From Bacteroidota bacterium (lineage in GTDB: Bacteria > Bacteroidota > Bacteroidia > M30B66), in assembly GCA_947460255.1 (NCBI GenBank), contig CANHIS010000015.1, positions 1-53,996 of the forward strand: a DNA stretch of 53,996 nucleotides. Reading direction: 5' to 3'. Of this stretch, positions 18,227 through 29,436 are shown piece by piece. How positions within the stretch are numbered: the stretch's first letter is position 1; each line of letters begins with the position of its first letter. The notes under the pieces were generated by a model that had not been told where the DNA came from, searched no databases, and saw only the letters and a list, made by a program, of their open reading frames with translations. The position numbers and the translations under genes are program-made.

Positions 18227-19102
18227 TTATGCATTCGCTGCCAGTTCATCTTTACCGGCGAAAAATTTTCTGTTCTTCACATTGTAATGGTTTCCTTTTG
18301 CCATCACGTGAACAATTAAGTGTTCGATGGAAATTGGATGCCCGTCATCAATGTCGGCAATATTTGAATGACGAATTGAGTGCCCATCAAAAATGATCAC
18401 CAATCCAGAGCCGATTGCTTCTAATTCGGTACCATTACTTACCAAAACACCAGTGTCTTCACCTAAGCCGATACCGATGCATCCAGGATTTGCCGAAACA
18501 GCTTGGGCGAGGCGACCAAATCTTCCACGGCGAACGAAATGCGAATCGATAATTACATCTTTCATAAAGGCCAATCCCGTAGTGATTTTCACTTTCCCTT
18601 TTAGGAAAGATTGATCGCTAGAACCTTCGTAAATCATGGTGTTCGACATGGCCATTGCACCTGCTGATGTTCCAGCAATTACAAAATGCTCATTTTCGTA
18701 ACGATGATGAAGCAATCTCAAAATATCGGTTCCTCCGAAAATGGTCGTTAATCGCATTTGGTTACCGCCTGTAAACATTACGCCATCAGCTTCTTCGATA
18801 CGCTTGTAGTATTCTGGATTTAATGCGTCTTCACGGTTTTTTATGTGGATCACGTTAACGCCTAAACAGCCCAGTCTGCTAAAAGCTTCCACGTAGTTGT
18901 TTCCAACTTCCTCTGGAATTTCCGAAGCGGTGGTAATAACTTCCACTTTGCTGTTAATTCCCTTCATTTCAGAGAGGATTCGCTTTAGAATGCCATCTTC
19001 AAAAAATGCCAAATTATTAGGGTTGTTGTAGTTCGGCTCGGCTGCTGTTCCTTTGTCAACATTGCCTCCGATCGATATCAAAATACCTTTTGGTGTATGC
19101 AT
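18227..19102 (-). CDS. cphB: Cyanophycinase
   Basis: A 291-residue peptidase of family S51. It hydrolyses cyanophycin, the multi-L-arginyl-poly-L-aspartate storage polymer, to beta-Asp-Arg dipeptides. The nucleophile elbow is GTSAGAMAMS with S146. Other family segments are GILISIGGNVDKG at the start, EADGVMFTGGNQMRL near 105, DSHFVRRGRFGRLAQAV near 195 and GIGLGEDTGVLV near 222. Length is normal for intracellular cyanophycinase and no signal peptide is visible, so it should act in the cytoplasm. It is divergent from cphA across a 271-base gap, a layout that allows opposite control of synthesis and breakdown. Confidence 0.95.
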   Translation of the reverse strand: MHTPKGILISIGGNVDKGTAAEPNYNNPNNLAFFEDGILKRILSEMKGINSKVEVITTASEIPEEVGNNYVEAFSRLGCLGVNVIHIKNREDALNPEYYKRIEEADGVMFTGGNQMRLTTIFGGTDILRLLHHRYENEHFVIAGTSAGAMAMSNTMIYEGSSDQSFLKGKVKITTGLAFMKDVIIDSHFVRRGRFGRLAQAVSANPGCIGIGLGEDTGVLVSNGTELEAIGSGLVIIFDGHSIRHSNIADIDDGHPISIEHLIVHVMAKGNHYNVKNRKFFAGKDELAANA

Positions 19103-19373: not shown

Positions 19374-22028
19374 ATGAAGATTCTTGAAATCAGGGCCATG
19401 AGAGGTCCTAACTATTGGTCGATCCGCCGCCATAAGCTTATCGTAATGAAACTCGACATCGAGGATTTCGAAGACAAGCCAACCAACCACATTCCTGGTT
19501 TCCCCGAACGACTCGAGAAACTTTTTCCGACCATGTATTCGCATCGCTGTTCCGAAGAACGTCCAGGCGGTTTCTTTCACCGTGTGAAGGAAGGAACTTG
19601 GATGGGGCACGTTATCGAGCACATTGCACTTGAAATTCAAACCCTTGCGGGGATGGATGTAGGCTTCGGTAGAACCCGTGGAACCGGAGAATTAGGCATC
19701 TACAATGTAGTTTTTGCCTACATGGAAGAAAAGGCTGGAATCTATGCCGCCAAAGCTGCTGTAAGGATCTGTGAAGCCATTGCTGCCGGAACGGATTACG
19801 ACCTCGACGATGATATTCAAACTATGCGTGAGATTCGCGAAGACGAACGCCTTGGACCATCAACAGGCTCAATCGTTGAAGAAGCACAAGCACGAAATAT
19901 TCCTTGGATTCGACTTAACCGTCACTCGCTCGTTCAACTTGGTTTTGGTGTGAACCAGAAAAGGATTCAGGCGACAGTAGCATCGACAACTTCCAGCATT
20001 GCAGTAGAGATTGCTTGCGACAAAGAAGAAACTAAAAATATCCTTGATGCAGCTGGCGTTCCAGTGCCTAAAGGTTACATTGTTTATGATGAGGAAGACC
20101 TCGAAGATGCCGTTAAAAAAGTAGGCTATCCGATGGTGCTTAAACCTGTTTCTGGAAATCACGGAAGAGGAGCAACCATCAATATCACCAATTGGGAAGA
20201 TACCAAAGAAGCACTTGTAGCTGCCAAGCGCGTTTCGCGTGGTGTGATTTGCGAACGATTTATTTCCGGTTTTGATTTCCGTTTGTTGGTGATCAATTAC
20301 AAGTTGGTGGCTGCCGCAAAACGAACACCTGCTGCTGTTACAGGCGACGGAAAACAAACCATACAACAACTCATCGATGAAGTGAACCGCGATCCACGCC
20401 GTGGCTATGGGCATGAAAAGGTGCTTACCGCGATTAAAGTGGATGAAATGACGCTCAATATCCTGAAAGACAAAGGCCTTGAACTTTCCGATGTATTGCC
20501 TGATGGTCAGATTTTATACCTGAAATCAACAGCAAACCTCAGTACAGGAGGAACAGCGACCGATATCACTGATCTCGTTCACCCTTACAATGTGTTTATG
20601 GCTGAGCGAATTGCCCGTGTGGTTGGTCTTGACATCTGTGGAATCGATATCATGGCGCCTGATCTTTTCACCCCAATCCGCGAAAATGGTGGAGCAATTC
20701 TGGAAGTGAATGCAGCACCAGGATTCAGAATGCACATTGCACCAACCGAAGGACTTCCACGCAACGTTGCAGAACCAGTAATCGATATGCTTTTCCCTCC
20801 GGGGACATCTTCACGCATCCCGATTATCGCTGTTACAGGTACCAACGGAAAGACCACCACAACACGCTTAATGGCTCACATGGTAAAGACCATGGGATTT
20901 AAAGTAGGCTTTACTACTACCGATGGTATTTACATTCAAAACAGGATGCTTCAAGCCGGCGATTGCACGGGACCTGTGAGTGCAGAATTTGTGCTTAAAG
21001 ATCCAACCGTGAATTTTGCCGTTCTGGAAACTGCCCGTGGTGGAATTCTCCGTGCAGGTTTGGCCTTCAGTTTCTGCGATATTGCCATTGTTACGAATGT
21101 GGCAGCCGATCACCTCGGACTAAAAGGCATCAATACCGTAGAGGAAATGGCGCGTGTAAAAGCTGTTGTTCCAGAAAGTGTGCATGTTGATGGTTATTCT
21201 ATTATCAATGCCGACGACGATCTGGTGTACGAAATGCGAAAGCAGCTACACTGTAAAATCGCACTCTTTAGTTTAAACGAAAATAACCCACGCATCATTC
21301 GCCATTGTAACGAAGGTGGTTTAGCGACCATCGTTGAGAATGGTTACGTAACGATTTGTAAAGGAACTTGGAAGATTCGTGTAGACAAAGTGGTGAACAT
21401 TCCACTCACCTTCTCAGGGAAAGCAGTATTCAATATCCAAAATATTTTGCCTGTGGTGATGGCTGGATTCCTCCGTGGTTTTAAGATTGAGGATATGCGC
21501 TTAGCACTCGAAACATTCATCCCGTCGCCAACTCAAACACCGGGAAGAATGAACATGTTCCAGTTCCGCAACTTCCAAGTGATGGTAGATTACGCGCACA
21601 ACACTGCTGGATTCCAGGCAATTGCTAAATTCCTCGAGAAGATCGATGCAACACCTAAAATCGGAATCATCGCTGGAGTAGGAGATCGTCGCGACGAAGA
21701 CATTGTAAATTTGGGCAAAATTGCTGCACAAATGTTCGATCGTATTATCGTGCGCCAAGACCGAAACCTTAGAGGCAGATCAGAACAGGAAATCATCGAT
21801 CTTATGTTAGATGGAATCAAGTCGGTAGATGTTTCCAAGGAAGTTGAGGTTATCCCAACTGAATCTGAAGCTATCGATCATGCAATCGCCACTGCACCGA
21901 AAGGAGCATTCATTGTAATTTGTAGTGATGTAATTCCTGATGCACTCGATCAAGTAATGCGAATCAAAGAGGAGGAAGATAAGTTCCAACTTAATCCTGC
22001 CGACATTCCGAACCTTTCTAAAGTATAA
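19374..22028 (+). CDS. cphA: Cyanophycin synthetase
   Basis: An 884-residue ATP-dependent ligase, the normal CphA1 size, that builds cyanophycin by alternately adding Asp to the backbone and Arg to the side chain. The start fits the family: MKILEIRAMRGPNYWSI. After the N-terminal domain (about 1-160) comes an ATP-grasp domain (about 215-480, with YPMVLKPVSGNHGRGATINI and GAILEVNAAPGFRMHIAP). A Mur-ligase-like domain follows, with P-loop AVTGTNGKTTTTRLMAH near residue 488, ETARGGILRAGLAF and VMVDYAHNTAGF. All motifs are intact. Cytoplasmic. Twelve bases separate its stop from the next membrane-protein gene. Isoaspartyl dipeptidase, needed to finish degradation, is not in the window. Confidence 0.97.
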   Translation: MKILEIRAMRGPNYWSIRRHKLIVMKLDIEDFEDKPTNHIPGFPERLEKLFPTMYSHRCSEERPGGFFHRVKEGTWMGHVIEHIALEIQTLAGMDVGFGRTRGTGELGIYNVVFAYMEEKAGIYAAKAAVRICEAIAAGTDYDLDDDIQTMREIREDERLGPSTGSIVEEAQARNIPWIRLNRHSLVQLGFGVNQKRIQATVASTTSSIAVEIACDKEETKNILDAAGVPVPKGYIVYDEEDLEDAVKKVGYPMVLKPVSGNHGRGATINITNWEDTKEALVAAKRVSRGVICERFISGFDFRLLVINYKLVAAAKRTPAAVTGDGKQTIQQLIDEVNRDPRRGYGHEKVLTAIKVDEMTLNILKDKGLELSDVLPDGQILYLKSTANLSTGGTATDITDLVHPYNVFMAERIARVVGLDICGIDIMAPDLFTPIRENGGAILEVNAAPGFRMHIAPTEGLPRNVAEPVIDMLFPPGTSSRIPIIAVTGTNGKTTTTRLMAHMVKTMGFKVGFTTTDGIYIQNRMLQAGDCTGPVSAEFVLKDPTVNFAVLETARGGILRAGLAFSFCDIAIVTNVAADHLGLKGINTVEEMARVKAVVPESVHVDGYSIINADDDLVYEMRKQLHCKIALFSLNENNPRIIRHCNEGGLATIVENGYVTICKGTWKIRVDKVVNIPLTFSGKAVFNIQNILPVVMAGFLRGFKIEDMRLALETFIPSPTQTPGRMNMFQFRNFQVMVDYAHNTAGFQAIAKFLEKIDATPKIGIIAGVGDRRDEDIVNLGKIAAQMFDRIIVRQDRNLRGRSEQEIIDLMLDGIKSVDVSKEVEVIPTESEAIDHAIATAPKGAFIVICSDVIPDALDQVMRIKEEEDKFQLNPADIPNLSKV

Positions 22029-22040
22029 GTAGATGAGCAG

Positions 22041-23366
22041 ATGAAGTTTCTGCGCTATCGATATTTTCTCACAGGGCTTGTAGCAATACAGGCCCTGTTT
22101 ACTTTACTCATCAAGCCTCCCAAAGAGCAGATGTTGGTGAGCGATGCAGTGCATTACCATAGTTGGCTCACTTCGGCATTCATAGAAAAAGATCTATCGC
22201 TGAATTTCCTCAAGCCAGATAGCACATATGATATCCAATACGCACACAACGTCACTGAGGATGGCAAAGCGGTTTTCAAAATGCCTCCCGGTGTTGCGCT
22301 ATTGCAAATGCCATTTTTCCTCGTAGGTCACGCAATAGCACTCGCGACAGATCAACCTGCCGATGGTTACAGCAATACCTATCAATTGGCTATACGATTG
22401 GCAGGTATTTTTTACTTCATCCTTTCGCTCATTTTCCTTCGGCATTATCTTCGAAAACGATTCGATGAAGCAGCAGTTAATCTAACATTAGCAATTGTCT
22501 CCATCGGTAGTAATTTATACTACTATGCTTTCATGGAGTCGGGCATGTCCCACGTTTATACATTCTCCTTGTTCAGCATTTTGATTTGGCTTTTCGATAA
22601 AGAAAAAATCCGATTTCAAGATGCCCTGCTTATTGGAACAATTGCCGGAATGTTGTATTTGGTGCGAAACTCCAATGTATTTCTGATGGTTTACTTCCCT
22701 TTGTTGCAGTATGTCGGGAAATCCGTCAAGAGCAATTTTTTCCTTCAGCCAAGATTGATCGTAATTGCTGCAATTCCAGCACTGGTCTTGACTTTAACGC
22801 AACTCGTTTACATTCACTATGCAACCAATCATTGGATGTTAAGTGCTTATCTAGGAGAACGATTTTTCTGGACTCATCCCGAAGTGCTCAAATTCTTATT
22901 CTCTTTCAAGAAAGGCTGGTTTGTTTATTCTCCTCTCATGCTTTTCATCATCCCTGGTTTGTGGATTATGTTCCGCAAGCGGGAAGGGGAGACTTTGCCC
23001 ATAATGATTACTCTTCTTCTGAGTGTATATATATTTTCTGCTTGGTGGTGTTGGTGGTACGGCGGATCATTTGGCATGCGCGCCATGATCGATCTCTATG
23101 CGCTATTGATGTTGCCTATTGCGCACGCGATGCAATGGATCATCCGCCGAAAGGCGCAAATTCGAAACTTCACTTTGGGAATATTGATAATCGGTATCAT
23201 GATCAACATCTTCCAAACCTACCAATACCAGCATGCCATTATTCATTGGGATGGAATGAGTGCCGAGCTATACAAGTCGAACTTTTTCAGAATTCAAACG
23301 CCACCTGATTATTCTGGATTGGATGCTCCAAACTATGAACTGTCGAAACGTGAAAGGCTTCCTTAA
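22041..23366 (+). CDS. Polytopic membrane protein, possibly a GT-C-type glycosyltransferase
   Basis: A 441-residue integral membrane protein with about ten to twelve hydrophobic segments. I do not recognise the exact family. The first extracytoplasmic loop, after the first helix, holds MLVSDAVHYHSWLTSAFIE; an acidic residue followed by aromatic and histidine residues at that place is typical of GT-C enzymes (family 39-like, using polyprenyl-phosphate sugars). The later loop WWCWWYGGSFGMRAMIDLY is also reminiscent of that group. Function is therefore a cautious inference. It begins 12 bases after cphA and probably shares its transcript, although no link to cyanophycin is known to me. Its stop codon overlaps the convergent FkbM gene stop by 4 bases (TTAA). 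Confidence 0.7.
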   Translation: MKFLRYRYFLTGLVAIQALFTLLIKPPKEQMLVSDAVHYHSWLTSAFIEKDLSLNFLKPDSTYDIQYAHNVTEDGKAVFKMPPGVALLQMPFFLVGHAIALATDQPADGYSNTYQLAIRLAGIFYFILSLIFLRHYLRKRFDEAAVNLTLAIVSIGSNLYYYAFMESGMSHVYTFSLFSILIWLFDKEKIRFQDALLIGTIAGMLYLVRNSNVFLMVYFPLLQYVGKSVKSNFFLQPRLIVIAAIPALVLTLTQLVYIHYATNHWMLSAYLGERFFWTHPEVLKFLFSFKKGWFVYSPLMLFIIPGLWIMFRKREGETLPIMITLLLSVYIFSAWWCWWYGGSFGMRAMIDLYALLMLPIAHAMQWIIRRKAQIRNFTLGILIIGIMINIFQTYQYQHAIIHWDGMSAELYKSNFFRIQTPPDYSGLDAPNYELSKRERLP

Positions 23367-24115
23367 TTGGTGGCAGATTCCACAGGTGCAGCAATGAAAT
23401 AGTATTCGCTGCCCAATTGGAAATGTTGAACAAAGGCAGATTTTTCAAGTGGTGCTGCATTGGCCAAAAAGTCACTGAGGCAGAATACGTTCAACTTCAC
23501 TTCCTGCAGTAAATCGAACATCAATTCTGGTCCTGATCCGTAAAACTCTGCAGAGCCCAATCCAAATTCGAACAAAACATACGGTCTACATCTCAATATC
23601 AAGGCTTTGCCGCCACTTAAAACGTCAAATTCTCCACCTTCCACATCTACTTTCAACAGCTTCAAAGATTGCTGAGCGGCAAACAAGTTATCAAGCGTTT
23701 CCACCTTCACATGAACCTCTTCAATCTTTGGATTTTCGACCAAATACTTCCGCTTTTTCAAACCACTGTAGGCAGGTGCATCCTTTACAACTTGGAAATT
23801 CGCTTCGCCCTGTTCCTTACCCAAAGCACAGTTGTAAAGCTTCACTTTCGATCCGTACTTCGATTGCAAATTCTTGAAAAGCGAAGGAATGGGTTCAAAA
23901 CCAGTATGCTTTCCCTCCGGGGATAGTTGGAGCATCCAGTCCATTAGTTCACCTTTGTGACAACCAACATCCACGCAAGCATCATCTTTTCTTAGGATGC
24001 GTTTCATGATCAACCATGCTTGTCGGTCATACCGCATATTTCGTGTGAGAAGAATGCCCGAACGAATGAGATGCGGCTTCAGGTAAGTCTTAAGGAATTC
24101 TTTAATTACACTCAT
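23363..24115 (-). CDS. FkbM-family methyltransferase
   Basis: A 250-residue SAM-dependent methyltransferase. The SAM-binding motif is ACVDVGCHKGELMDWML near residue 45; the FkbM-type post-motif LKLLKVDVEGGEFDVLSGG lies near 155. FkbM enzymes O-methylate sugars or other hydroxyl groups, often on surface glycans or natural products; the substrate here is unknown. No signal peptide. It is the last gene of the operon that starts at 28486; its ATG overlaps the stop of the type IX secreted protein gene by 4 bases. It might modify glycans attached to secreted or surface proteins, which is an inference from position only. Confidence 0.9.
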   Translation of the reverse strand: MSVIKEFLKTYLKPHLIRSGILLTRNMRYDRQAWLIMKRILRKDDACVDVGCHKGELMDWMLQLSPEGKHTGFEPIPSLFKNLQSKYGSKVKLYNCALGKEQGEANFQVVKDAPAYSGLKKRKYLVENPKIEEVHVKVETLDNLFAAQQSLKLLKVDVEGGEFDVLSGGKALILRCRPYVLFEFGLGSAEFYGSGPELMFDLLQEVKLNVFCLSDFLANAAPLEKSAFVQHFQLGSEYYFIAAPVESATN

Positions 24116-25545
24116 TCAATCACCAATTTTCTAGTGGTCAGAATTTGCCCCTGGCTTCCAAACATAGTCATGATGTAAATCCCAGTAGCTGTTGATTGCA
24201 ATTCTACTGTGGAGGTTCCAGCATCAGTAATCAATTTAAATTCAACAGTTCTCCCTGTGATGTCTCGAATATCGATCCGATCAAACTTCACTGGGGAAAC
24301 AAAGCTAAATTGACCTTGCGAAGGGTTTGGATAAACATCCACCATGATTTGATTATCCATCCTATTTTTAGCACTCAATTGTAAATTCACCGTTGAACAA
24401 TCGAAGGCTGCGCGGTTCACGAAGATGCTCGTCTGACCTGGACTAAACTCTAAATCAGTTCCACAAAGGATATTTCCATCTTCCACTGCTAGAACAGCAT
24501 TCGATTCGCTGTTCTGGATCCCAGGAAACACAAAGGAACACAAGAATTGAAAATCGGTGGTGTATCTAAACAAGGCTGCGCGGTCAACAGTTCCATCTTT
24601 AAACACACTGGCTACAATCATGGTATTGTCGGGAGCATTGTACCGAATGGCAGAAAAGCTATTGGCAAATTGTTCCCCAGAAGTAGTCTGAGCAAAAAAC
24701 GGCGTATTTCCTTGCGCATCGAATTGATACAGTTTTCCTTGCTTGGCAGTTTCTGTTTGCATGGTATATCCACAGGCTCCGATTAAAGCACCCGAACCTA
24801 AGCACACATCAGTTAGGTGATCTTCCTCTGTCGTTCCAACTAGCTTGGTCCAAATTACTGTTCCATTGGCATCCAATTTTACCAAAAGGAAATCCATGCT
24901 ACTGTTATCGGGGTTGAATGCAGAACCACCAACGTAAATCGTATCCTCTGCAGTTGAAACGATTCCTCCAGCAAGCTGTTGATCGCCCATCGGAAGCACT
25001 CCACGCCACAGTTCTTCACCATCCGCATCGGTGCAGATATTCAAAATTCCCCCGTTAGGGAAAGGCAAATCGTAACTTGTTGAGGTCATCACCAAATTTC
25101 CATTACTCAATTCTGTTACTCCTTCAAAAAGATCCCAAGCTGTGGTGCCGAATTGCTTGGTCCACAAGGTGTCGCCAGCTGAATTCAACTTTACGAGATA
25201 CAGATCGTAATCGCCGTTTTCGCTTCTGTTGGTTTGACCACCAAGGAGATAGTTCCCATCATTCAAGGCGATTAAATCGATCGCTTTTTCCGCATAGGAA
25301 GTGCCGTAAACTTTCCACCATTCTTGATTTCCAAGTGAATCGGTACGTATAACAACCATGTCTCCATTTTCAGAACCCCAACCGCCCGTTGAACCAGCAA
25401 TGAGAAAACCGTTTTCTATTCCTTGAACTATATCGGCTGCTTGGTTAAAGTGCCCCGGAGCGCCATAGGTTCGAAAGAAGAGATTCTGTGCTTGAGCCAT
25501 CCATGAGATCGCGAAAAAGCCTGCTGTCAATATCAATGCTTTCAT
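24112..25545 (-). CDS. Type IX secreted beta-propeller-like protein with C-terminal sorting domain
   Basis: A 477-residue exported protein. A signal peptide ends at MAQAQ (about residue 19). The body contains repeated units of the kind GDMVVIRTDSLGNQEWWKVYG, GDYDLYLVKLNSAGDTLWTK and MDFLLVKLDANGTVIWTKL, spaced 45-60 residues apart, which suggests a beta-propeller of the Bacteroidota SBBP-like type. The last 75 residues form a type A sorting domain: VDVYPNPSQGQFSF, then IDIRDITGRTVEF and IYIMTMFGSQGQILTTRKLVIE. It should be exported across the outer membrane by the type IX system and attached to the surface or released. It overlaps the neighbours on both sides by 4 bases. No enzymatic motif seen. 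Confidence 0.9.
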   Translation of the reverse strand: MKALILTAGFFAISWMAQAQNLFFRTYGAPGHFNQAADIVQGIENGFLIAGSTGGWGSENGDMVVIRTDSLGNQEWWKVYGTSYAEKAIDLIALNDGNYLLGGQTNRSENGDYDLYLVKLNSAGDTLWTKQFGTTAWDLFEGVTELSNGNLVMTSTSYDLPFPNGGILNICTDADGEELWRGVLPMGDQQLAGGIVSTAEDTIYVGGSAFNPDNSSMDFLLVKLDANGTVIWTKLVGTTEEDHLTDVCLGSGALIGACGYTMQTETAKQGKLYQFDAQGNTPFFAQTTSGEQFANSFSAIRYNAPDNTMIVASVFKDGTVDRAALFRYTTDFQFLCSFVFPGIQNSESNAVLAVEDGNILCGTDLEFSPGQTSIFVNRAAFDCSTVNLQLSAKNRMDNQIMVDVYPNPSQGQFSFVSPVKFDRIDIRDITGRTVEFKLITDAGTSTVELQSTATGIYIMTMFGSQGQILTTRKLVIE

Positions 25546-26891
25546 AGAAGTATCATGTAGCTAAAGTAAAAACCATTGCCCGACAAGGATTTCGATGAGA
25601 TAAATCCTTCGTTATACATTGTTCCAATTTGAATTCTGTGTCGATTGGGTTTGTATTCCAGACCTACATTCGAATTTAGATTACCGAATCCACCGTAGGT
25701 GAAGCCCAAGTTTAGGTAAAGTGGTTTGGTATTGATTAACCTGTAGTTTCCTCTCAAAGAATATTCTACGCGCATCCCTAGAATTCTGCGGTAACGCGCG
25801 CCTGCAGTGAGTAAAAGGCGTCCTGTTTTTGGATCTGCCAAATAGCGGAGTTCGGCTTGGAGTTGAAATGGCAGTAGTTTCATTTCTGAAGCTTTTTCTT
25901 CCGCGCCGCGCAAGCGACTTAACAAGCTATCGCCAACAACCAAAGTAGTATCGTCGTAGTTCAGGACATCGTAAAACTGCAATCCCGTGAAACGGAAACT
26001 TGTATCACGTTTGAAATTATCGCTTTGTGCATTCCAAGTGATGAATCCCAAATCTTTCACAGAAGCACTGAGCTTCCAATGGTATTTTTGATCGAGGAAC
26101 TTGTAGAAGCCCAGATCCATCAAGTAACCGTTCGACGGATTTTCTCCCATTCTGTTGGAACTTCTTGTTGAGGTGAAATAGCTACCGTTCCAAGCTAAAT
26201 CTAACCACTGACCTGAAGGTTCTGTGTACAATGAACCTGAATTCAATTGAATATCAGTGTGGTTCAATCCTCTTGCAAATCCGAAATTGGTGAAAAATCC
26301 AAATCGATCTTTCGAGAGTTGCTTTCGATAACCTATTTTAAAATACTGATAACCAATTGCGTAAAGCTTGCTGTTGTCGAAATTCGCCGTTTGATCTGCG
26401 TAAGCTGCATTTCCACTGAAAACGGTGCGCAACAGATCTTCGGAGAATTCTGCTCCATATACCAACTGTCGACCTGCACTAAATGTTATCGCTTGTAGAT
26501 TGTCATGCCAAGTGCTGTCGGGAGATACAACTGCTTCAACTCCGAAGTCCAATTCTAATCCGAATCTTCCCATGCCATTGAGGCGATCGTAAGCGTTCGA
26601 TTTCAACTCATTATCGATAAACTTCGGATTGACAAATGCATTCGAAAAAGACGTGGGAATAGAATTGCTGTTTGAAGAACCCTTCGCATAAAGTTCGACA
26701 ATCGCTTTGTTGTAGGGAGTAAAATAATCATAAGGGTGAAAATAAACTTCACTCAATACTGTAGGAAGTTGAGGTAAGAACATATAGGTGTTCCTAATTT
26801 TCACAGTATCGTTGGCTGGATTTGTTTGTGCCAAAATGCTAGTGAAGCTTAAGCCCAAAAACAGAAAACTAAAAATTGCCTTTTTCATCAC
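25542..26891 (-). CDS. Outer-membrane beta-barrel protein (DUF5723-like)
   Basis: A 449-residue protein with a signal peptide (KKAIFSFLFLGLSFTSILAQ). The rest is rich in alternating hydrophobic strands and aromatic strand ends (for example KIGYRKQLSKDRFGFFTNFG, ELDFGVEAVV and the terminal GNGFYFSYMILL), as in FadL/PorV-type barrels. The layout resembles the Bacteroidota DUF5723 family, an identification from memory that a profile search should confirm. It lies between a lipoprotein gene and a type IX secreted protein gene, overlapping both by 4 bases. It could be a surface channel or a scaffold that docks the secreted protein, by analogy with PorV/PorQ; this is inference. Confidence 0.75.
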   Translation of the reverse strand: MMKKAIFSFLFLGLSFTSILAQTNPANDTVKIRNTYMFLPQLPTVLSEVYFHPYDYFTPYNKAIVELYAKGSSNSNSIPTSFSNAFVNPKFIDNELKSNAYDRLNGMGRFGLELDFGVEAVVSPDSTWHDNLQAITFSAGRQLVYGAEFSEDLLRTVFSGNAAYADQTANFDNSKLYAIGYQYFKIGYRKQLSKDRFGFFTNFGFARGLNHTDIQLNSGSLYTEPSGQWLDLAWNGSYFTSTRSSNRMGENPSNGYLMDLGFYKFLDQKYHWKLSASVKDLGFITWNAQSDNFKRDTSFRFTGLQFYDVLNYDDTTLVVGDSLLSRLRGAEEKASEMKLLPFQLQAELRYLADPKTGRLLLTAGARYRRILGMRVEYSLRGNYRLINTKPLYLNLGFTYGGFGNLNSNVGLEYKPNRHRIQIGTMYNEGFISSKSLSGNGFYFSYMILL

Positions 26892-28486
26892 TTTAGTTTT
26901 ACTGTGTAAATTCCTCTTCCAGCCAATTGTACTTTCACGAAGTAATCGGCATACATGGGAAGCAGCGTGTTTTCCGGTTGCGTATTGAGGCGTACCCTCA
27001 CAACAATGTATTTCGTTTTTTCCAGAGCATTCAATCTGGCAGGAGTGATCTTCGCTTGCAAAATGTGCTTTGTTGGTGAAATCACGCGTAAATCAGCATC
27101 AACAGGCGCTGCAGGAATATTTTGGTTGATCAAAATGGTGTCGATCAAAGCTTTGTTCTGATCAAGTAACCAAAACTCGGTCATCAAATCGAATGGAAAA
27201 CCATTTTCAACAAAGAACTTCAAATCGGCATTTTGCACTGGACTATCTGTGGCGTTTTCTAAACCTGCAGTGCTGATGGTATCTTGAAAAACCAAGGCAT
27301 TTGCAGCAAATTTCAGCGGCATGGTTACGGCCACTTTCGCTCTGGCATTACTCGAACTGTAGATAAAGTCGTTGCCTGAAGAGATATTTCCTAAAGGATT
27401 CAATTCGGCTCTTACCGAATAGTGAAGTTGATCAGGTAGCAATTCAAGCATTTGTACAAGGTTCGAATTGCTGGCATTGAATTGAAAATTTCTCACCACT
27501 GGGGTGTAGGGATTTCCATCCTGCGCCACATTGAGTGCTCTGCCCATGTGTTGAATGTTCCCGATCATCGGATGATTCAAAGAAACCTGAGTGTTGGTGG
27601 ATGTTCTAACGCCCTTCAACTGCTCTACAAGGAAGGAGAAATCTGCGCCAATTGAGTTTTCAAGCTCGAGATCCAATGTAGCATCATCAAGGTTGAGGTT
27701 TCCTTCCAAATTGCGCATGAATCCTAAATCGGAGCTCTCGTTGGAGTTATCGAAAATCTGGCGACCCAAATATCCTTTGGCAAAGTATGGACGAAAATCT
27801 TTGAAGGTGTTTTTGAATTTGATGGCTGGAACATTGGCTATCACCGGACTTCCATCACCCGAAGGGTCAAGTTGTGCATCCAAAATCAATTGGATTTCAT
27901 TGCTCGAGTTGAGGTCTGGTCCGCGGAGGTCTAAACTGTAGCCTGCTAAACTAAAGGAACGTTGTTCAACCCTTGGATTAGTTGCCGATCCCGCTGCAAG
28001 CGATTGGTTAATCAAACTGAACGGAACAGCTGAAAATAGGGCAGAGGGAATCGAATATCCGTAAAGAATTGGATCATCAAGCGATGAAGTGATTTCCGAT
28101 TCTAAACTTCCGGATTCTAAAATCGCGTGCGTCAATTGAAGTTCACCATAGTTGAATCGGATAACTTGGTTGATATCAAATACCTCAAATCCACTTGGAA
28201 GATTGAAGTCTAAGGGCAAACTGTAGGAATTTTCGATTGTCGTATCGGGAATCGAAAGAATCGAATCGGAAGGAATTAAACTAATCGTTGATTCATATTT
28301 AATTACCAGAGGATCTCCAGGATTGCTGATAATCAAGGAGTCGGCAATGATATCTTCTATCGACAACCGAGTTTCGGCTAGCGGACCAAGCAATTCCGTT
28401 TCCCAACTGGTTGATTCTTCGTTGTTACATGCCGAAATGGAGAGGAGCAGCAAGCACGACGAAAGGAGTTTGTAAAATCTTTTCAT
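26888..28486 (-). CDS. Large lipoprotein of unknown function
   Basis: A 532-residue lipoprotein precursor with the lipobox LSISAC at about residue 20 (MKRFYKLLSSCLLLLSISAC). The mature protein is strand-rich, acidic and Ser/Asn-rich, without cysteines or catalytic motifs I recognise. Segments with evenly spaced hydrophobic residues (for example IPSALFSAVPFSLINQSL) suggest beta-sandwich domains. The start is set at the ATG at 28486 because a TAnnTTCG promoter element at 28493-28500 overlaps the earlier in-frame TTG. It is the first gene of a four-gene operon with 4-base overlaps at every junction, ahead of the barrel, the type IX secreted protein and the methyltransferase. Function unknown; an outer-membrane partner of the barrel is likely. 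Confidence 0.85.
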   Translation of the reverse strand: MKRFYKLLSSCLLLLSISACNNEESTSWETELLGPLAETRLSIEDIIADSLIISNPGDPLVIKYESTISLIPSDSILSIPDTTIENSYSLPLDFNLPSGFEVFDINQVIRFNYGELQLTHAILESGSLESEITSSLDDPILYGYSIPSALFSAVPFSLINQSLAAGSATNPRVEQRSFSLAGYSLDLRGPDLNSSNEIQLILDAQLDPSGDGSPVIANVPAIKFKNTFKDFRPYFAKGYLGRQIFDNSNESSDLGFMRNLEGNLNLDDATLDLELENSIGADFSFLVEQLKGVRTSTNTQVSLNHPMIGNIQHMGRALNVAQDGNPYTPVVRNFQFNASNSNLVQMLELLPDQLHYSVRAELNPLGNISSGNDFIYSSSNARAKVAVTMPLKFAANALVFQDTISTAGLENATDSPVQNADLKFFVENGFPFDLMTEFWLLDQNKALIDTILINQNIPAAPVDADLRVISPTKHILQAKITPARLNALEKTKYIVVRVRLNTQPENTLLPMYADYFVKVQLAGRGIYTVKLK

Positions 28487-28492
28487 GTTCTG

Positions 28493-28500
28493 CGAAAATA
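28493..28500 (-). promoter_or_regulatory. -7 promoter element (TATTTTCG) of the lipoprotein/barrel/T9SS operon
   Basis: TAnnTTCG on the minus strand, 6 bases from the ATG at 28486, predicting a very short leader for the four-gene operon. Confidence 0.45.
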
Positions 28501-28521
28501 GCAATTCGAAGCGTGTTAACC

Positions 28522-28563
28522 ATTATAAAACAAAGAAGGCCACTCAAATTGAGCAGCCTTCTT
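28522..28563 (-). terminator. Rho-independent terminator of the 28582-29436 lipoprotein gene
   Basis: On the minus strand an 8-bp stem (AAGAAGGC with GCCTTCTT), a 2-base internal loop and a further 4 bp (CTCA/TGAG) are followed by TTTGTTTTAT. It starts 19 bases past the stop codon and separates this gene from the next operon. Confidence 0.8.
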
Positions 28564-28581
28564 CAAATTCACTTTCTTTCG

Positions 28582-29436
28582 TTAGTTAATTGTGATCGTG
28601 TATGTGTTTCCGTTTATGGTAACATTTACTGTATTGTCGCAAGTTCCATTACCGTAATCTACAATTCTTGCTGGGCGTGATGCTGGTGTAACGGTTTTTG
28701 AGCCACTCACAATTTCGCGGCATGAACGTTTGTGCACCAATGGTGAAGTGATGATTGTTGACCAGCTTCCACCTGAAGCATTGGTTCCATTTGAACTTCC
28801 AGTTACACTGATTTCATCGTCGGCAAACAAGAGTGGTGTATCATAACCAGCAATCCAAGTTCTGATTCTTGAAGCCGACCAAGTGATTGTTCCGCCATTG
28901 TTGGCTAGAGTTACTGTTCCGCTTACTTGAACGGTAAATGTAGGTTGTCCGCTTGAGTTGTTTCCAGTGTTGGTTACAACGCGGCTGCCACTTACGCCAT
29001 TTCCATTTACGAAATAGTTTTGTGGTATGATGGTTACAACTGTGCCTGTTTCAAAATAGCGACCAGTGGTTGAAACGATAATTTTCCCACTTCTGGATCT
29101 GCCGTCGTTTCCTATGCAGCCGGTTCCAAAATCCACAACAATTGTATCGGGATTTAAGGCCGAAACGGCTGATGAGGTGTCGAAAGTAATTACAGCGCAA
29201 GAACTCAACAAGGTTCCTTGGTCTTCTGTTACTTTGAAACCTGACGCAGAACCTGTTTTGGCTACTTGGTCAGCGATGTCGTTAAGTTCGATGTAATATT
29301 TTTCAACAGAATTTTCATTCTTGGCTGCGTTGGTGTCAGAATCTATATCATCTTTTTTGTTACATGATAGAACCAACATTGATAAAGTAATGGCCGCAAA
29401 TAAGCCAGCAAGTCCATTTTTCTTGATAGTTTTCAT
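28582..29436 (-). CDS. Lipoprotein of unknown function with two VD(F/Y)G-G-C repeats
   Basis: A 284-residue lipoprotein precursor; the lipobox is LVLSC with lipidated C25, followed by a charged linker (NKKDDIDSDTN). The mature protein is beta-rich and Ser/Thr/Gly/Asn-rich with few charges. A similar element occurs twice: IVVDFGTGCIGNDGRSRSG near residue 100 and RIVDYGNGTCDNTVNVTING near 257, the second close to the C-terminus. I know no function for it. It has its own terminator and a 68-base upstream gap with a hairpin, so it is probably a single-gene unit. Surface or periplasmic face of the outer membrane is the likely location. Confidence 0.82.
   Translation of the reverse strand: MKTIKKNGLAGLFAAITLSMLVLSCNKKDDIDSDTNAAKNENSVEKYYIELNDIADQVAKTGSASGFKVTEDQGTLLSSCAVITFDTSSAVSALNPDTIVVDFGTGCIGNDGRSRSGKIIVSTTGRYFETGTVVTIIPQNYFVNGNGVSGSRVVTNTGNNSSGQPTFTVQVSGTVTLANNGGTITWSASRIRTWIAGYDTPLLFADDEISVTGSSNGTNASGGSWSTIITSPLVHKRSCREIVSGSKTVTPASRPARIVDYGNGTCDNTVNVTINGNTYTITIN

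Follow-up and report, generated by a model that had tools for sequence, protein, structure and literature searches.

Gene content of the locus

The window analysed here is a stretch of 53,996 nucleotides from the genome of a Bacteroidota bacterium (contig CANHIS010000015.1 of assembly GCA_947460255.1). Four intact open reading frames lie on its minus strand between positions 23363 and 28486, in the order lipoprotein, outer-membrane barrel, beta-propeller and FkbM methyltransferase. All four had been described in an earlier note on this DNA and were found again, complete. The first two, a lipoprotein and a barrel of the family DUF5723, recur as a pair across the phylum, in many lineages together with the propeller, and judging from families and gene order their products probably assemble into a surface complex. 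The literature searched, which was mostly without subscription papers, contains no description of this unit.

The lipoprotein gene (26888–28486) encodes 532 amino acids with a lipobox, SISAC, at residues 16–20. The unit had previously been extended to 28504, an upstream TTG start; the ATG at 28486 is taken here. The barrel gene (25542–26891) and the propeller gene (24112–25545), which encodes a cargo protein of the type IX secretion system (T9SS), follow, and the FkbM gene (23363–24115) comes last. The 4-base overlaps reported for the three junctions are all present, that between lipoprotein and barrel on condition that a GTG at 26891 is taken as the barrel start; with the alternative ATG at 26888 this overlap shrinks to 1 base.

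The barrel

The window barrel matches DUF5723 (PF18990) with 75 bits against a curated cut-off of 26.8, and the same model matches 58 of the 61 barrels compared. According to a confident AlphaFold model (pLDDT 86, pTM 0.80) the barrel has a FadL fold, common to PorV and BamG. The closest solved folds are the FadL, TodX and CymD channels (Z 18–19), FadL with Z 19.3 over 299 aligned residues at a root-mean-square deviation (rmsd) of 5.5. PorV follows (8gl6_F, Z 17.3, 253 aligned, rmsd 8.4; 6h3i_F, Z 16.7, 241 aligned, rmsd 4.4), together with entries of the beta-barrel assembly machinery (BAM) that contain a FadL-type chain (Z 16–17; 9n2d_B, Z 17.1).

The earlier assignment of this protein as a PorV-type barrel did not hold. 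DUF5723 alone matches, the PorV/PorQ models PF19572 and NF033709–NF033711 do not, a PorV search of the genome missed the barrel locus, and hhalign gave probabilities of 3% and 1.5% to the two PorV-family proteins of the genome. Family models and profile comparison rule out PorV or PorQ as the identity of the barrel, and the FadL fold is all that they have in common. No PorP/SprF model in Pfam or NCBIfam was matched at E values up to 1, the Toluene_X model has no match in the window's genome, and the profile of 61 barrels matched no PDB chain at E up to 10, BamG chains included. DUF5723 has no described function, and no mention of it was found in the literature searched.

Given this fold, the barrel could be a FadL-like transporter of a hydrophobic or other small molecule, with the lipoprotein as surface receptor and the propeller as extracellular binding protein. 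The nearest solved folds are indeed channels, and TonB-free uptake by a barrel and a lipoprotein would suit a two-gene module. However, a fold by itself shows no function, and no substrate gene, enzyme or regulator recurs beside the pair, the neighbours being rarA, kdsA and glycan genes. We regard such a transporter as rather unlikely.

The lipoprotein

The window lipoprotein has no Pfam or NCBIfam match, and none of its 61 family members matches a Pfam model. Its AlphaFold model (pLDDT 88.8, pTM 0.74) has one clear structural match, the uncharacterised Parabacteroides protein 4h3w (Z 16.6, 290 residues, rmsd 7.7; Foldseek E 1e-12). No BAM chain is among the fold matches listed, and sequence comparison with the BAM chains of the PDB, the solved BamH chains among them, gave no match.

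In Capnocytophaga, the optimal signal for export of lipoproteins to the surface is C-X-K-(D/E)2-X (PMC5080379). The window lipoprotein starts with C-NNEE, and those of two congeners with C-RKEE, which fits C-X-K-(D/E)2. Among the 61 lipoproteins, 45 have K or R at +3, 38 have D or E at +4 and 11 have D or E at +5. Surface exposure of the lipoprotein is considered likely.

A paralogous pair was detected on another contig of the same genome (C1, L029:7021–11117) by hhalign and family models. Here the DUF5723 protein carries thrombospondin type 3 repeats and an OmpA domain, an extension missing from the short window barrel, and the preceding gene, with a 1-base overlap, encodes a lipoprotein of the same family as the window's. 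Comparison of window and paralogue by hhalign gave a probability of 99.6% for the lipoproteins (E 2e-24, 493 columns) and 99.0% for the barrels. The paralogous lipoprotein starts with C-LKDDF, which fits the optimal export signal. This OmpA-type pair recurs in other families.

Conservation across Bacteroidota

The lipoprotein profile A1 was searched in 395 Bacteroidia genomes, of which 277 matched, and a profile of 61 sequences was used for a phylum-wide draw of 118 genomes. Sixty loci were taken from 29 other Bacteroidia families; two of these loci reach the contig edge right after the lipoprotein, leaving 58 usable loci. A barrel immediately follows the lipoprotein in 55 of these, and a related propeller lies a few genes downstream on the same strand in 43. 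The lipoprotein also occurs outside Bacteroidia: 48 of the 118 genomes in the phylum-wide draw match the 61-sequence profile, and a DUF5723-like barrel comes directly after it in 16 of 20 loci from this draw, 17 of the 20 belonging to other classes. Thus lipoprotein and barrel are adjacent throughout the phylum, and the linkage to the propeller is conserved across Bacteroidia. From these neighbour counts, we infer that the pair is the core unit, the propeller its partner in Bacteroidia, and FkbM a late addition.

The window's order is represented among the sampled genomes by one family of ten genomes. Eight of them contain the lipoprotein, always followed by barrel and propeller, and seven of these eight also contain FkbM; the four families are not scattered among these close relatives, and the block is syntenic in the same seven. 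The lipoprotein/barrel and barrel/propeller junctions are each 4-base overlaps in six of the eight, so that the tight packing of the genes is itself conserved. Where contigs reach, the genes upstream of the unit are dnaA and those for a low-molecular-weight phosphatase and an RsmI-like methyltransferase (all three named from sequence, not by family search). A contig search with the single barrel sequence as query matched one congener and no more.

Other genes are conserved near the pair as well. Among the Bacteroidia loci, 17 have a kdsA-like gene after the barrel, and 23 have a rarA-like gene as a neighbour, in most cases upstream (both named from sequence). These two neighbours, which have no obvious functional tie, could suggest that the genes stay together through inherited synteny only and that their products do not work together; the distance correlation, no higher than for rarA, agrees with this. 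Against it, the pair persists across classes, with changed neighbours and in a paralogous copy, and in the window's family kdsA and rarA are gone and the trio of lipoprotein, barrel and propeller has moved beside dnaA as a unit, yet is still together. We consider inherited synteny alone improbable.

The kdsA-like gene, predicted to encode the KDO (3-deoxy-D-manno-octulosonate) 8-phosphate synthase of lipopolysaccharide (LPS) core synthesis, is in many families the gene immediately after the barrel, usually with the propeller next (L067, L072–L075, L078, L079, L081, L083, L087, L089, L091, L092, L102, L113). In genome G316, which has the full trio at L097, the lipoprotein gene of a second copy (L098) overlaps the propeller gene directly, with no barrel in between.

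The propeller and type IX secretion

The third gene encodes a DUF5122/delta-60 beta-propeller whose repeats match CylK. As had been noted before, it ends in a type IX C-terminal tail: a type A sorting domain covers residues 404–476 (24118–24336, minus strand), with scores above the curated cut-offs for both TIGR04183 (37.7 bits, cut-off 23) and PF18962 (40.5 bits, cut-off 27). The same domain was found in 44 of 50 propellers. NF052228, the model for PorZ, fails to match the window propeller and matches one of the 50 members weakly. No paper combining T9SS with delta-60 repeats was found in the literature searched.

The window's genome encodes SprA, PorU–PorV and a second PorV-family protein. 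Because SprA is present in 383 of the 395 Bacteroidia genomes, its co-occurrence with the lipoprotein gives little contrast on T9SS dependence. Neither SprA nor the lipoprotein is present in seven nearly complete genomes, some of which are related to one another; genome G066, rated 95% complete, has the lipoprotein and no match to SprA.

The presence of the propeller also bears on whether the pair is an accessory of outer-membrane biogenesis like BamG–BamH, with the propeller as a co-regulated neighbour or client and not an anchored partner. The FadL fold, with BamG-containing BAM entries among its matches (9n2d_B, Z 17.1), the architecture of barrel plus lipoprotein and the occurrence of the pair throughout the phylum without a propeller are all in line with such a role. 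On the other hand, neither profile has a sequence match among the BAM chains of the PDB, the lipoprotein is found in 277 of 395 Bacteroidia genomes while universal occurrence is reported for BamG and BamH (PMC12611786), and the role would not account for the type A propeller that keeps recurring. Overall, this accessory role appears unlikely. As the actual BamG–BamH of the window's lineage, the pair was rejected, no sequence match having been found and the pair not being universal.

FkbM and the glycan link

The fourth gene is a clear FkbM methyltransferase (TIGR01444, 96.6 bits, cut-off 37.7; PF05050, 63.7 bits, cut-off 22.7). Its membership of the unit, as first proposed, stands for seven of the eight lipoprotein-bearing genomes of the window's family; it does not extend to the core. 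In the congener G005 FkbM is cleanly absent and 8 bases separate the propeller from a convergent cyanophycin synthetase gene, and at most distant loci FkbM is not beside the trio. FkbM was consequently rejected as a core subunit. From gene order, it is seen as a later, family-specific local addition, with three cases of a looser neighbourhood to the trio elsewhere.

Outside the family, seven of 57 genomes have an orthologue of this FkbM (scoring above 260 bits, against 82 for the next FkbM), and in three of these seven, from three families, it lies at most 10 kb from the trio. This proximity has a binomial P of about 6e-6 (assuming a genome of 3.5 Mb, and with shared descent possible), and is therefore hardly pure chance. 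Hand-counted hits place a GT-C-like gene close to the trio in five outside genomes, where 0.7 would be expected (P about 7e-4). In the window, a GT-C-like glycosyltransferase gene (22041–23366, plus strand; NF047440, 41.4 bits, under the cut-off of 200) converges on the unit, its 3′ end overlapping that of FkbM by 4 bases. In the sister species G003, the GT-C-like gene has decayed to two end fragments with 71–76% identity (C6:40021–40327), located between FkbM and cphA.

Bacteroidota O-glycosylation uses the sequon D-S/T-A/L/V/I/M/T (PMC12871550). Compared with shuffled sequences, this sequon is enriched 2.7-fold in the lipoproteins, 3.6-fold in the barrels and 2.3-fold in the propellers, as opposed to 0.1- to 1.4-fold for the other proteins encoded nearby. 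Five positions in the lipoprotein keep it in 43–52 of 61 members. The idea that the secreted protein is glycosylated therefore gains support, as the enrichment concerns the three exported families and not the cytoplasmic neighbours, and the conserved sequons and nearby glycan genes together suggest a glycan link.

The FkbM translation shows no signal peptide, so that the substrate of the enzyme would be a sugar in the cytoplasm or a lipid-linked precursor and not the surface protein itself. It may thus methylate a sugar of a surface glycan or of a protein O-glycan at the stage of the cytoplasmic precursor. A methylated surface glycan is plausible, since a methylated deoxyhexose is part of the C-terminal linker sugar in T9SS cargo of Prevotella intermedia (PMC11969387).

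Flanking genes and regulatory signals

Just upstream of the unit lies a gene for a lipoprotein-like protein of 284 amino acids (28582–29436) without a Pfam match, the position of which is kept in seven of the eight family genomes. It ends at an intrinsic terminator (28531–28565, minus strand) with a 16-pair stem, a 3-base loop and a TTTT tail (fold z = -3.0), and the earlier statement that a terminator isolates the unit from the preceding gene was found to be correct. The "-7 element" said to precede the first gene could not be upheld: the candidate, TATTTTCG (28493–28500, minus strand), agrees with TAnnTTTG at seven of eight positions, the exact pattern is absent there, and across the window exact TAnnTTTG matches are not more frequent than expected by chance. 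On the other side, a cyanophycin synthetase-like gene (19374–22028) and a divergent cyanophycinase-like gene (18227–19102), named from sequence only, adjoin the trio in most of the window's family.

A proposed surface platform

We propose that lipoprotein and barrel constitute an outer-membrane platform that anchors the T9SS-exported propeller, in the manner of PorQ–PorZ and BamG–BamH, and we give this proposal about an even chance of being right. The FadL-fold DUF5723 barrel and the lipoprotein would form a complex in the outer membrane, the lipoprotein probably facing outward, and in Bacteroidia one version of the pair would handle a dedicated T9SS substrate. By means of its type A tail, the propeller would be exported by Sec and then by the SprA translocon, and the platform would hold it at the surface as PorQ holds PorZ. 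The surface-held propeller may bind a cell-surface glycan, the glycan acting as ligand or as decoration. The proposal is based on the phylum-wide conservation of the pair, the trio staying together after its move to dnaA, the type A tails and the paralogous pair, as well as on the fold shared with FadL, PorV and BamG, the presence of SprA and PorU–PorV, the precedents of PorQ–PorZ and BamG–BamH, and the glycan link. Of the one surface complex of four products that had been suggested, what is retained is an envelope unit that has its own barrel and lipoprotein; the part given to FkbM was overstated and the barrel is not of the PorV type.

In Porphyromonas gingivalis, PorZ, a T9SS propeller, is kept on the surface by the PorQ barrel (PMC5562754) and binds the lipopolysaccharide A-LPS (PMC8545088). 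The likeness lies in a barrel linked with a T9SS beta-propeller that bears a type A-like tail, with anchoring by the barrel and a glycan ligand proposed (PMC5562754, PMC8545088). Unlike PorQ, the window barrel belongs to DUF5723 and not to PorV/PorQ, a large lipoprotein is added, and the propeller misses NF052228. BamG, a FadL-family barrel, carries or anchors the surface lipoprotein BamH (PMC12611786, PMC12578637). The window pair resembles it in joining a FadL-fold barrel with a lipoprotein predicted to be at the surface, and differs in having no detected sequence relation, in not being universal, in its link to a T9SS cargo gene and in having no known tie to BamA. Finally, PorP/SprF-like barrels (SprF–SprB, PorP–PG1035), encoded next to their T9SS cargo, act as shuttle and anchor for type B cargo (PMC12618676, PMC9143113), whereas the window cargo has a type A tail and the window barrel misses the PorP/SprF models.

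Several observations weigh against an anchored propeller. PorV is reported to recognise type A tails (PMC12618676), so that export does not depend on a cognate barrel. Outside Bacteroidia, and in its OmpA version, the pair is found with no propeller, and hence its basic function need not involve one. Distance correlations did not exceed that of the rarA neighbour control, and co-evolution by distance matrices was set aside as uninformative. The start of the window lipoprotein, C-NNEE, is by its residues no textbook export signal, D or E at +5 being rare in the family, and the conserved D-S/T positions may be structural.

In a further step, which we put forward tentatively and hold to be doubtful, the phylum-wide barrel–lipoprotein complex would serve in Bacteroidia as a dedicated receptor and anchor for the type A propeller. 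Type A cargo could then be sorted to a cognate non-PorV barrel, as type B cargo is, and could stay on the surface with no need for the sortase to attach it to LPS.

The surface machines of Bacteroidota (SusCD, BAM, T9SS) are composed of barrels and surface proteins, and the pair described here would be another conserved one, tied to T9SS cargo. Neither Pfam nor NCBIfam has a model for the lipoprotein family, although about 70% of the Bacteroidia genomes sampled, and others outside the class, encode a member. The close pairing of this family with the barrel offers a first functional handle on DUF5723. The pair bears on how type A cargo reaches its final place, and its role is directly testable in a tractable species.

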